Assembly: GCF_003474435.1 (NCBI RefSeq)
Contig: NZ_QRNF01000039.1
Span: 1-31,011 of the forward strand
From: Ruminococcus sp. AF46-10NS
Lineage (GTDB): Bacteria; Bacillota; Clostridia; Lachnospirales; Lachnospiraceae
DNA length: 31,011 nt
Direction of reading: 5' to 3'
Shown: positions 26,867 through 31,011 of the stretch, one piece after another
How the letters are laid out: each line of letters opens with the position of its first letter
Position numbering within the stretch: position 1 is the first letter of the stretch
Made by a program: the position numbers and the translations under genes
The notes under the pieces: model-generated
Seen by the model: the letters and a program-made list of their open reading frames with translations, nothing else
Database searches by the model: none
Told to the model about the DNA's origin: nothing

Positions 26867-28153
26867 TTGAGATTTGTAATTGCTGTTATAATTTTCAGCG
26901 TTGTGATACTGATCCATGAGCTGGGACATTTTTTTCTGGCGAAAAAGAACCATATAGAGGTACTGGAATTTTCTCTTGGCATGGGTCCGAGAATTTTAAG
27001 TACTGTAAAAGGCGGTACCCGTTATTCCCTGAAGCTTCTTCCCCTTGGAGGCTCCTGCGCCATGGCCGGGGAGGACGCGGAGGATGATGGTCCCGGGACA
27101 TTCAATTCAGCTCCTGTATGGGGCAGGATCGCAGTTGTTGCTGCAGGACCGGTTTTTAACTTTTTGCTGGCGTTTGTGCTTTCTGTGATTATTGTAGGCT
27201 GTATTGGTTATGATCCGGCTACAGTACTGGAAGTTACGGAAGGCTCCTCCGCTGAGAAGACAGGTCTTGAGGTCGGAGATGTGATCACGGAATACCAGGG
27301 ATATCATATCGACCTGGGAAAAGACCTCTATGTATATTCTTATCTGAACCAGCTGGAAGAGGATGATACCATCCATCTGAAGGTAAAGCGTGACGGTGAG
27401 ATAAAGGAATTTTCCTATAAGCCGGATGTAAACGTGAGATATCTTCTGGGCTTTAACCGTTCTGATGTGAATTCCATGACAGTGGAATCTCTGATCAAGG
27501 GAATGCCTCTGGAAGAGGCAGGCCTTGAAGCTGGAGATGTGATCACAAAGATCAATGGTGTGGAAGTTCCGGATGGAGCAACCTATGAGAAGTATCTTGA
27601 GAAACATCCTCTGTCTGATCAGCCGGTTACCATCACATATGAACGAAACGGGTTGGAATATGAGACAGAGATCACACCCAGAGAATACAGAACTCCGGTA
27701 TCTGGTTTCGGGTATAATACTTACAGTGAAAAAACTTCTGGTTTCAATGTACTGAAATATGGTGCTGTGGAAGTGAAATATATGATTCGTACCACGATTT
27801 TGAGCTTAAAAGAGCTTGTGACCGGGCATCTTGGAATGAAAGATTTAAGCGGTCCGGTTGGCGTTGTGGATGCTATTGGTGATACTTATGAGCAGTCCAG
27901 GAGTGAAGGAACCCTGATGATCTGGATGAATATGCTGAATATGGCAGTCCTTCTCTCGGCAAACCTTGGAGTTATGAACCTGCTTCCTCTTCCCGCACTG
28001 GATGGAGGAAGACTGATGTTCTTACTTGTGGAGGCCATCCGCAGGAAACCGATTAACCGTCAGGTAGAAGGTATGGTGCATTTTGCGGGGCTTATGCTTT
28101 TGATGGCACTGATGGTTGTGGTGATGTATAACGATATTTTAAAAATTTTCTAA
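26867..28153 (+). CDS. rseP: RIP (site-2) zinc metalloprotease RseP/RasP-like
   Basis: This intramembrane protease cuts anti-sigma factors, signal-peptide remnants and division proteins. The 428-residue protein has HELGH (His17, Glu18, His21) in the first membrane helix. Two PDZ-like regions lie at ~120-185 and ~195-265 (GLEVGDVITEYQGYHI, GLEAGDVITKINGVEV). The second metal motif is in NLLPLPALDGGRL near the C-terminus, and helices close the protein. The second PDZ-like copy makes it resemble the E. coli layout. It starts with TTG one base after the dxr stop, with AGGTGG upstream. The weak start and tight packing suggest coupling to dxr. A terminator ends the operon. Confidence 0.93.
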   Translation: MRFVIAVIIFSVVILIHELGHFFLAKKNHIEVLEFSLGMGPRILSTVKGGTRYSLKLLPLGGSCAMAGEDAEDDGPGTFNSAPVWGRIAVVAAGPVFNFLLAFVLSVIIVGCIGYDPATVLEVTEGSSAEKTGLEVGDVITEYQGYHIDLGKDLYVYSYLNQLEEDDTIHLKVKRDGEIKEFSYKPDVNVRYLLGFNRSDVNSMTVESLIKGMPLEEAGLEAGDVITKINGVEVPDGATYEKYLEKHPLSDQPVTITYERNGLEYETEITPREYRTPVSGFGYNTYSEKTSGFNVLKYGAVEVKYMIRTTILSLKELVTGHLGMKDLSGPVGVVDAIGDTYEQSRSEGTLMIWMNMLNMAVLLSANLGVMNLLPLPALDGGRLMFLLVEAIRRKPINRQVEGMVHFAGLMLLMALMVVVMYNDILKIF

Positions 28154-28289: not shown

Positions 28290-28351
28290 AGAGTGCGAAA
28301 AAAATTCGTACTCTGGAATAGGGCCATTCATTCATATTCAGGCATATACTA
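28290..28351 (+). promoter_or_regulatory. Hairpin and candidate promoter upstream of the SleC-like gene
   Basis: AGAGTGCGAA/TTCGTACTCT (28290-28299 with 28305-28314) forms a 10-bp stem with one G-U pair and a 5-A loop. Downstream, CATATACTA (28343-28351) fits the sigma-K-type -10 pattern CATANNNTA and also contains TATACT, one base from a sigma-A -10. No good sigma-A -35 is present. A sporulation sigma factor is therefore possible but unproven. Confidence 0.35.
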
Positions 28352-28396
28352 GCAGAGAGTCAAAGTGTTTTCAGGCACAAAAAGGAGTCTCTGTTT

Positions 28397-29092
28397 ATGA
28401 AAAATCATTCTTATATTTCCATGCAGCAGGATACCCCGGATCAGGGACAGCTGCAGGTGACGGTGCAGGATGGGGCAAGTAACCGTCCTGTGGAAAATGC
28501 CAGAGTACGGATTTCATACACAGGAGTACCAGATAATATCATTGAGGAAGTGCGTACGGATTCCTCAGGAAAAACACCTCTTCTGGATTTGGCAGCTCCG
28601 CCTTTGGAGTATAGCATGAAGCCGGTGGAACAGCAGCCCTATTCCGAATATACAGTTCAGATCAGCGCAGATGGTTTTGAACCAAAAGAAGTGGCAGGAA
28701 CAGAAGTACTTCCTCATTCAATCTCTTGGCAGGGTGCATCTCTCAGGCGGCAGCAGGGAAATGGGGAGGATTATCAGCGGATCGTTATCGGGCCACACAC
28801 CCTGTTTGGAGAGTATCCGCCTAAAAATCCGGAAGCAGAGATTAAGCCGGTAAATGAATCTGGGGAGATTGTTTTGAGCAAAGTGGTGATTCCGGAGTAC
28901 ATCGTAGTCCATGATGGTCCGGCAGGGGACACCAGTGCCCGGAATTATTATGTACGTTACAAAGATTATATCAAAAATGTGGCCAGCAGCGAGATCTATG
29001 CAACCTGGCCGGACGATACGATTCGTGCTAACGTGTGGGTACATAAAGGCTACCCACACTTATTTTCGCTGGATTTTCGGATAAATATCTAA
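28397..29092 (+). pseudogene. SleC-like spore cortex-lytic protein, N-terminal half, interrupted by an integrated element
   Basis: The ORF starts after AAAGGAG. It matches the N-terminal half of the SleC family of spore cortex-lytic enzymes (peptidoglycan lytic transglycosylases used in germination). The first ~90 residues form a carboxypeptidase-regulatory-like beta domain (QLQVTVQDGASNRPVENARV). A linker follows, then the segment around PEYIVVHDGPAGDTSARNYY and YKDYIKNVASSEIYATWPDD, highly characteristic of SleC. Similarity ends at Val213 (codon 29033-29035), where the family continues with a long catalytic region. Here 18 unrelated residues follow and the frame ends at 29092, inside the 3' end of the opposing recombinase gene. 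The catalytic half is absent from the window. It is most likely displaced to the far side of the element. Confidence 0.85.
29020..29066. mobile_element. Left junction (att site) of an integrated element within the SleC-like gene
   Basis: SleC similarity stops at about 29035, and the recombinase stop codon is at 29060, so the junction lies between or just before them. A perfect inverted repeat, GTGTGGGTA (29033-29041) with TACCCACAC (29051-29059) and a 9-base loop, spans the join. It may be part of the recombinase-binding site or may terminate the truncated gene (TTATTTT follows). The crossover bases cannot be fixed without the right-hand junction. Confidence 0.6.
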
Positions 29093-30628
29093 AGTAAAAG
29101 AAACATCATCACCGTTTTTCCATGTATTTTTTGTATTTTTAGTATAAACAGCCTTTTCTATCAGCTCACGAAGAAACTGATTCTTTGTAGAGGTATCCCA
29201 TGTCCAGTAATGAGCGAGAAGATCTTCACATTTGGGGATAAAAGAAGAACGCTGAAACTGGAGTTCCTGTTCGTGTTTAATCTCCTGCCTTAAAGAATGA
29301 ATTACTGTATCGCAGGCAGACAGTTCGGCAGCAGTAGCCCGGGAACGTTCGAGAAATTCTTCTGTAGAATAAATTCCCTGCTCAAGAAGATCATATTGCT
29401 TTTCTTTTTTCTTCTTCAAAACATCAATTTCTTTTAATTTTCCCCGAAGCATTTCTTCTTTCTCGGAAATAGAAAGAGAATATTCCTGATCAGAAAAATT
29501 GCTATTTAACTTGTAGCCATCTACAAGTTCCTGGATTCCGTCAAGAAGAGCTTTTTCAACAAGAGGGAGCTTACTACTTACATTGTCGCAGGAACTGTAT
29601 GGACATCGAAGCAGATCACCCTGTTTGCCACTTGGTGCTTTACGGGTCATAACATAACCACATTTTCCACAACGAATAATACCGGCAAGTGGATTACGGA
29701 GTACATGCAGAGAATTGAGCGGCCGTGCAGGATTTCGATTCACAATGTCCTGGGCTTGCTGAAAAAGTTCCTTTGATACAATAGAGGGATGTTTGCCTTC
29801 AACAAGAATATAATCCTTAGCAAAAGGGCGAGAGATGGTTATTTGCCCATCTTGTATATGCTTTACAGCCTTTCGGCTGTTCCAGCGTATCATTCCTGCA
29901 TACACTGGATTTCTAAGAATTGCCTGCACACGAGGGACGGTCCATAAACCGCCATCCATGGTTTTAATTCCGGAATCATTTAATTTACGGCAGATCTTAG
30001 CCATTCCAATTCGCTCACCTGCCACTCCGTGGACATACAAATTGAATATGAGCTTAACGATCTCTGCCTGATCAGGAACAGGCTGCAGCGTCCACCCTTT
30101 TTCTCCAACAAGCTTTATACGGGAATATCCGTAAGGCGGCTTACTGCCACAATATTTCCCCTCTTTCGCAGAAGATTCACGACCTGCAGTAAGACGGCGG
30201 CGAATAGTTTTATATTCTCGCCGAGACATAAAAAGGCCGAATTCGAAATATTCTTCGTCATATTCATTGTTTGGATCATAAGTTTTGAGCGGAGTAATAA
30301 TCAGTGTTTTAGAATATCGGAAGGCTCTGGCCACAACACCCTGATCTATAGTATCGCCCCTGGCCAGACGCTCAACCTCGACAACCAGGACACCATCCCA
30401 CATGCCAGCTTCTACTTCATGGAGAACCTGTTGCATAACAGGCCTTGCAGAGATTGTCTCACCGGATACGATCTCTTTATAGATTGCACCCACATTATAA
30501 CCACGCTTTTTAGCAAGATCCAGCAAGATCCGTTCATGGCGTGCAAGAGTTTCGCCTTCGCCCCTGGCCTCAGCTTCCCGATCAGCACGGGACTTACGCA
30601 GGTAGATACATACATTTAAAAGTTCCAT
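29060..30628 (-). CDS. Large serine recombinase (SprA/phage-integrase type)
   Basis: This is a 522-residue site-specific recombinase. The N-terminal resolvase domain has the nucleophile Ser13 in YLRKSRAD, and VVEVERLARG and the RRR region at ~143 are conserved. The recombinase DNA-binding domain begins near KYCGSKPPYGY (159-168). A zinc ribbon follows, with Cys320, Cys323, Cys342 and Cys347, into which a coiled-coil (~385-470) is attached. This layout is that of large serine integrases such as SprA of SPbeta, which do both integration and, with a directionality factor, excision. I chose ATG 30628, with GAGGTGAT before it; a longer frame to 30721 lacks support. The gene ends ~25 bases from the break in the SleC-like gene. 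No directionality-factor gene is visible here. Confidence 0.94.
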   Translation of the reverse strand: MELLNVCIYLRKSRADREAEARGEGETLARHERILLDLAKKRGYNVGAIYKEIVSGETISARPVMQQVLHEVEAGMWDGVLVVEVERLARGDTIDQGVVARAFRYSKTLIITPLKTYDPNNEYDEEYFEFGLFMSRREYKTIRRRLTAGRESSAKEGKYCGSKPPYGYSRIKLVGEKGWTLQPVPDQAEIVKLIFNLYVHGVAGERIGMAKICRKLNDSGIKTMDGGLWTVPRVQAILRNPVYAGMIRWNSRKAVKHIQDGQITISRPFAKDYILVEGKHPSIVSKELFQQAQDIVNRNPARPLNSLHVLRNPLAGIIRCGKCGYVMTRKAPSGKQGDLLRCPYSSCDNVSSKLPLVEKALLDGIQELVDGYKLNSNFSDQEYSLSISEKEEMLRGKLKEIDVLKKKKEKQYDLLEQGIYSTEEFLERSRATAAELSACDTVIHSLRQEIKHEQELQFQRSSFIPKCEDLLAHYWTWDTSTKNQFLRELIEKAVYTKNTKNTWKNGDDVSFTLDIYPKIQRK

Positions 30629-30797: not shown

Positions 30798-31011
30798 TTA
30801 TAATTCAAGTTCAGATAACTGTGGAGAAATTATTTTTGCTTGATGATGCTGAAAAAAAGCTTGATTTCTAGTAATTATATCAACATCAGAAATATAAAGA
30901 AAATCTGCATCGTTAGTTACAATTTTTAAATTATAATATTGGGCAAGTAACGCATAATATCTGTCGTTAAAATCGAAAGAGGCTTCGTTATCAAAAAAAT
31001 AGTTTAAATTT
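30798..31011 (-). CDS. PIN-domain protein, C-terminal part (partial at right edge)
   Basis: An open minus-strand frame enters from the right edge and stops at 30798, giving 70 residues. The stretch FDFNDRYYALLAQYYNLKIV followed by TNDADFLYISDVDII has the pattern of PIN-fold ribonucleases: an acidic residue in the helix before ALLA, then the TNDxDF strand-loop with catalytic aspartates. VapC-type toxins end this way, but so do other PIN nucleases. The N-terminus and any antitoxin lie beyond the window. It is A+T-rich, unlike the housekeeping genes, in keeping with a mobile element. Confidence 0.65.
   Translation of the reverse strand, partial: NLNYFFDNEASFDFNDRYYALLAQYYNLKIVTNDADFLYISDVDIITRNQAFFQHHQAKIISPQLSELEL

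Follow-up and report, generated by a model that had tools for sequence, protein, structure and literature searches.

Near the right-hand end of the window (the whole stretch of DNA analysed here, 31,011 nt), an open reading frame resembling the spore cortex-lytic enzyme gene sleC (28397-29092, + strand, 231 aa) breaks off beside the gene of a serine recombinase. The locus raises the question of whether sleC has been destroyed, whether it is a landing site for mobile DNA, or whether it is rebuilt by excision during sporulation as in the skin and SPbeta systems. The last is considered the probable answer: the window element would be a skin/SPbeta-type intervening element in sleC, excised in the sporulating mother cell so that the gene is rebuilt.

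The interrupted gene was compared with intact relatives. Against the sleC of the nearest relative compared (locus L001, genome G001), the window DNA is 92% identical over 28317-29034 and unrelated beyond, and the encoded protein is 97% identical over residues 1-213. The 5' part of sleC (28397-29034, + strand, delimited by the DNA and protein alignments to L001) comprises codons 1-212 and the GT of codon 213; the break falls at 29034, and the final 18 residues of the frame, an unrelated tail that includes the stop codon (29036-29092, + strand, by alignment), are element DNA. The first-pass annotation had described a frame that follows its family to residue 213 and then runs into 18 unrelated residues, and the alignment to L001 agrees; it had also proposed a search of relatives for an uninterrupted gene, which was found in L001, L021 and L022. 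The best named matches of the window half are from Blautia, which makes Blautia the probable host genus. Intact L001 aligned over residues 14-422 with PDB entry 9h68, "Spore cortex-lytic enzyme pre-pro-form" (E 8.7e-134), and contains a PG_binding_1 domain. As judged by these matches the interrupted gene is that of the spore cortex-lytic enzyme SleC, with its first half in the window. Upstream of it lie the host genes frr, uppS, dxr and rseP; rseP (26867-28153, + strand, TIGR00054 RseP above cut-off, with DNA resembling that of L001 and L021 as far as 28151) also adjoins intact sleC in L001 and L021. A possible sigma-K -10 box of sleC, CATATACTA, was found by pattern match at 28343-28351 (+ strand), with no clear -35.

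The gene beside the sleC half lies on the - strand at 29060-30628 (522 aa from an ATG at 30628, stop at 29060, longest frame from 30721). Its product contains the Pfam domains Resolvase (PF00239), Recombinase (PF07508) and zinc ribbon (PF13408) and matches PHROG 95, integrase, and on these matches it is a large serine recombinase, the level to which the first-pass label SprA-type is borne out. The first-pass placement of this - strand gene some 25 bases further on than the sleC frame holds when the distance is counted from the break to the recombinase stop; the frames themselves overlap by 33 bases (29060-29092). The attL core GTGCTAACGT (29025-29034, + strand) stands in the place occupied by GTGCCAATGT at both attL and attR of the relatives G081 and G083. 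At the element edge a 9-bp perfect inverted repeat with a 9-base loop, GTGTGGGTA / TACCCACAC (29033-29059, from reading of the sequence and self-match), is likely to be part of the recombinase binding arm, and the symmetry of the arms would place the crossover dinucleotide at the GT of 29033-29034. A scan of viral contigs returned recombinases 97, 91 and 90% identical to that of the window in L101, L102 and L103, each abutting an N-terminal half of sleC. The host-element junction, with natural sequence variation, is common to all three, and since the same junction recurs in three other records, an assembly or chimera artefact of the window at 29034 can be given almost no weight. The window holds about 2 kb of the element, whose far end lies beyond it, and somewhere between 30725 and 30791 its DNA ceases to resemble L101-L103. 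The gene that follows in the element, left incomplete at the window's edge (30798-31011, - strand), has a weak PIN-domain likeness (PF01850, E 0.00098, under the curated cut-off), and another gene is found at that place in G083.

Both ends are visible in two relatives of the window element (recombinase clade A below). G083, a single 44,442-bp record, carries the C-terminal half of sleC (residues 208-422) at its far end in the same orientation; GTGCCAATGT is present at both ends, the intact genes L021 and L022 have it at the same place, and joining the halves restores the frame as RANV-LAIMSF. In IMG genome 2900013633, which has a 97% identical recombinase, the N-terminal half is in 2900013633_000004 and the C-terminal half in 2900013633_000003, and the joined product is identical to intact L021 at 419 of 425 aligned positions. 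In each of these two the C-terminal half is present, undecayed and in frame, with a 10-bp direct repeat; in a third relative, G082, the record ends before any C-terminal half. Among the features of an intervening element, the window itself shows the location inside the sleC coding region and the recombinase gene adjoining the gene half; the restorable far half, in the same orientation and with a direct repeat, is seen in G083 and, across two records, in IMG genome 2900013633. Read from sequence, the sleC interpretation is well supported in structure through these relatives. The earlier suggestion that sleC might be restored in the manner of skin and SPbeta is in part supported: it has gained from them a C-terminal half, a 10-bp repeat and a restorable frame, and it gains further from the wider survey described below. 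The excision, its timing and its cell are inferred, as is the likeness of the window's own far end to those of the relatives.

Genes for terminase, portal, major head, tape measure and endolysin lie between the sleC halves of G083, and by this gene content the G083 element is a temperate phage. The C-terminal end of its terminase (L181:8427-10088, - strand) matches an intein splicing domain (E 3.8e-07, under the curated cut-off). DNA identity between the window and G081 is 95.3% in the recombinase and 83.2% in the sleC half; the recombinase being the closer of the two, the element family moves between hosts. A search of viral contigs for the attP pattern expected of the excised phage gave zero exact matches, and a clear target was not seen at the inspected insertion sites of the ~50% relatives of the clade A recombinase.

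The frequency of split sleC was surveyed in 296 genomes of the family with completeness of at least 95%, 196 of which had a sleC match. The gene was split in 27 of the 196, in one piece in 165, represented by a distant homologue only in two and unclear in two. Among the 27, the break was at site B (~residue 230) in eight and at site C (~residue 297) in 15, with two halves found for both sites; one gene was broken at site D (~residue 166, G248), and in three (G134, G139, G214), counted as split on this basis, only the C-terminal half was found. G398, one of the eight site-B genomes, is split at B and C. In a first survey the match to other genomes stopped at ~residue 228-231, and both halves were then found in most. 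G204 was counted as split, its N part running into a contig end; not counted were G169 and G384 (distant homologue only), G176 (where the halves lie at contig edges) and G158 (where the gene after the N part reads as dihydroorotase). The 165 one-piece genes are made up of 149 and a further 16, among which G202 and G394 are truncated at contig ends and G354 contains a single stop. Assembly breaks were considered as a cause of the split counts and rejected: with dxr as the control gene in these 296 genomes, 7 of 295 best matches were weaker than 1e-110 (on match score alone) and two further genomes (G174, G260) had a second match, against 27 of 196 for sleC. Split and one-piece species occur side by side in eight genera, and one genus has two split species; many of the insertions may therefore be recent, in which case the intact state of the halves says less. 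At the fourth break, in G248 (L252, L253), a recombinase fragment adjoins the gene, and the element ends look by eye like an inverted repeat.

Thirty-eight junctions from 34 cellular genomes and two phage records were examined (A, 2; B, 19; C, 17). Among the genomes with a split sleC is that of a commensal isolate, Faecalicatena orotica NLAE-zl-C242 (L072, G104). In G107 and G398 sleC is in three pieces, broken at B and C, with a different recombinase beside each break (L215-L217; L218, L219, L236). Both sides were open at all 38 junctions and abutted without loss of a residue, in the reference register for A and B and in a register two residues shorter for C; the two L001 residues missing from the C register are also absent in 51 of 75 one-piece genes. 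Once joined, all 34 single-split genes were full-length and stop-free. Frame restoration alone is weak evidence, because the scripts searched for in-frame joins, and the independent test of the junctions was the shared repeat across 61 registers. The expected register had the longest shared repeat in 23 of the 38 (20 without ties); in the other 15 the expected-register repeat was short (2-7 bp) and was beaten by chance repeats elsewhere. The expected register shared 2-5 bp at G393, G104, G295, G124 and G145, where a free choice of register favoured a longer chance repeat. Element size was 2.4-18 kb where both halves lay on one stretch and, by coordinates, ~24 kb in G120 and ~40 kb in G295; the elements of G370, G292, G267, G174, G393, G244, G038 and G101 measured 2.4-4.1 kb. 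The cargo of small sleC elements, read by eye, includes CheD/CheC in G393 (L167) and serine dehydratase subunits in G140 (L169).

A recombinase tree of 50 rows was built from clade A (4 rows), site B (15), site C (16), split sigK genes (6) and viral-contig relatives of clade A (9). The second recombinases of G107 and G398, which adjoin the C break and were already among the C rows in a 44-row tree, were labelled C. Clade A, B, C and sigK rows each formed one group with support of 100/100, and the five labels required the minimum possible number of changes on the tree; recombinase clade and insertion site correspond one to one. Long branches meet in this tree and the order of the big clades is not trustworthy, their separateness being sufficient for the argument. 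Divergence of site-C recombinases was correlated with that of the host sleC (14 genomes, Mantel r 0.55, 5 of 5000 permutations as high); for site B the value was r 0.20 (13 genomes, 951 of 5000 permutations as high).

The sporulation context of the split genes was also considered. In Clostridioides difficile, sleC belongs to the sigma-K (mother-cell) regulon and is described as essential for germination (PMC3789822), and excision of skin requires the recombinase CD1231 and the directionality factor CD1234, produced in the mother cell under sigma-E and SpoIIID (PMC5025042). Of 101 sequences upstream of sleC, 33 contained the -10 pattern CATANNNTA (mean 8.6 and maximum 17 in 100 shuffles) and 57 a sigma-K-type -35/-10 pattern, which is thus enriched there (mean 9.1 and maximum 16 in 100 shuffles). 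Sporulation-type promoter patterns upstream of recombinase genes were weak (8 of 34; 4 of 200 shuffles as high), and a pattern search upstream of the window recombinase returned none. A directionality factor was looked for in clade A and none was identified, and a search for shared small ORFs yielded, among the matches listed, mostly frames overlapping sleC or the recombinase; at site B, small ORFs that look alike by eye lie upstream of 7 of 15 recombinase genes. In at least six split-sleC genomes (G103, G120, G126, G250, G267, G295; L240-L248) sigK is split as well, near residue 109-129 and with a serine recombinase gene inside each, so that skin-like elements in sigK and sleC elements coexist there. 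The sporulation gene spoIVA was matched in all 34 split cellular genomes, 31 of them above the family cut-off; in G022 and G295 the gene is spread over two adjoining frames, and in G017 it is a fragment. In G295, a one-contig genome, the spoIVA locus (contig C1, 2245002-2246472) has either a frameshift or a sequencing error.

The proposed course of events is as follows. The window would hold the left end, attL, of an element of temperate-phage type that was placed at codon 213 of sleC by the serine recombinase encoded beside attL. In growing cells sleC would be split and silent, at little cost since the enzyme has no role outside spore germination. In sporulating cells the recombinase, probably aided by a mother-cell directionality factor, would recombine attL with attR and excise the element, and an uninterrupted sleC would be rebuilt in time for transcription by sigma-K. 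The forespore would retain the element, which would thereby be inherited; the reasoning is that excision from a gene used only by the dying mother cell would not remove the element from the spore. A wider proposition, put forward tentatively and at somewhat less than an even chance, is that in gut spore formers of the Lachnospiraceae type sleC has repeatedly become a developmental switch gene, with at least three unrelated recombinase lineages tied to it independently at separate sites; some genes would then need two excisions per mother cell, and phages would gate germination, with non-excising cells making dormant spores.

Destruction of the gene would leave its halves decaying in hosts that no longer germinate in this way. 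The presence of another one-piece SleC homologue (~42% identical) in G120 and G359 would fit such hosts, as would the spoIVA genes in two frames or in fragment noted above; this homologue was found in only 2 of the 34 split cellular genomes, however, and spoIVA matches occur in all 34. The joined single-split genes are open over their whole length, and the window half has a dN/dS of 0.063 against intact L001. With the halves open and this ratio low, the dead-gene reading was set aside as very unlikely, and the wider survey tips the balance strongly towards a reversible insertion. The unsaturated pairs among the surveyed genes, too few for a firm comparison, gave a dN/dS of 0.23 for split genes (6 pairs) against 0.053 for one-piece genes (13 pairs), a point estimate that leans against restoration.

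An ordinary integration hotspot is a less remote alternative, here judged rather unlikely. sleC is conserved and dispensable in growth, so several phage and element lineages might insert in it and leave by ordinary induction with no tie to sporulation; spores of the carriers would then be germination-defective unless the element happened to have left. The phage genes of G083, the movement of clade A between hosts, the failure of site-B recombinases to track host sleC divergence and the eight genera with both split and one-piece species all suit this explanation. The elements of 2.4-4.1 kb, and one of ~1.9 kb in a paralogue (below), are too small for phages and yet keep a recombinase and both open halves, the site-C recombinases do correlate with host sleC divergence, and the carriers keep spoIVA; for a carrier that lost its only SleC, sporulation would be pointless. 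The recurrence in related bacteria of sleC elements that could leave without damage to the gene suggests, short of proof, that the split is a developmental switch, and programmed excision from sleC remains the preferred reading.

Among known systems, skin in sigK (Bacillus subtilis, C. difficile) is likewise a serine recombinase element inside a mother-cell sporulation gene that is rebuilt by precise excision; it differs in that its target is a sigma factor and not a germination enzyme, and on the tree the sleC recombinases group separately from the recombinases in the six split sigK genes. SPbeta, a whole temperate phage, splits the B. subtilis spore gene spsM, which is rebuilt on excision (PMC4191935), and G083 similarly has a phage genome between its halves, in a different target gene. 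The gin element in gerE of Bacillus cereus is a non-phage intervening element with a 9-bp shared core and excision in sporulation (PMC5595907), comparable to the 2-4 kb sleC elements, but gin is 28.6 kb long with three recombinases (PMC5595907) and the small sleC elements have one. The yin element of Clostridium botulinum is prophage-like and lies in yabG, a sigma-K-linked clostridial gene, and its excised circle was seen in culture (PMC10747680); because YabG processes pre-pro-SleC in C. difficile (PMC10747680), yin and the sleC elements both lie on the germination pathway. According to the accessible text of that source yin is unique to one strain, in contrast to the 27 of 196 genomes in which sleC is split, and the same text gives sigK, spsM, spoVFB, gerE and yabG as known targets of programmed excision and names SleC only as a YabG substrate (PMC10747680).

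In the literature searched, which consisted of titles and abstracts with most subscription papers outside it, no report of an element in sleC and none joining SleC, Lachnospiraceae and prophage was found. Within that literature the first-pass view of sleC as a new target gene is supported; several convergent recombinase lineages and doubly split genes also set the system apart. If split sleC is rebuilt in sporulation, the mechanism would be frequent in one of the major groups of gut spore formers and would act on germination rather than on the building of the spore. The three recombinase clades, elements of ~2 to 43 kb and doubly split genes would then provide many natural replicates of the sharing of a developmental switch between phage and host, and where sleC looks "truncated" or "missing" in genomes of this kind, an inability of the spores to germinate should not be taken for granted.

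Two further observations were made on sleC-like frames. In L040, L048 and L049 ([Ruminococcus] torques ATCC 27756) the sleC frame ends at ~residue 299, at site C. G334 also has a divergent paralogue of sleC (L249, G334:C64:51000-56500), which shares 31-45% identity with L001; it too is broken at site B, where ~1.9 kb of inserted DNA holds little besides a recombinase gene.
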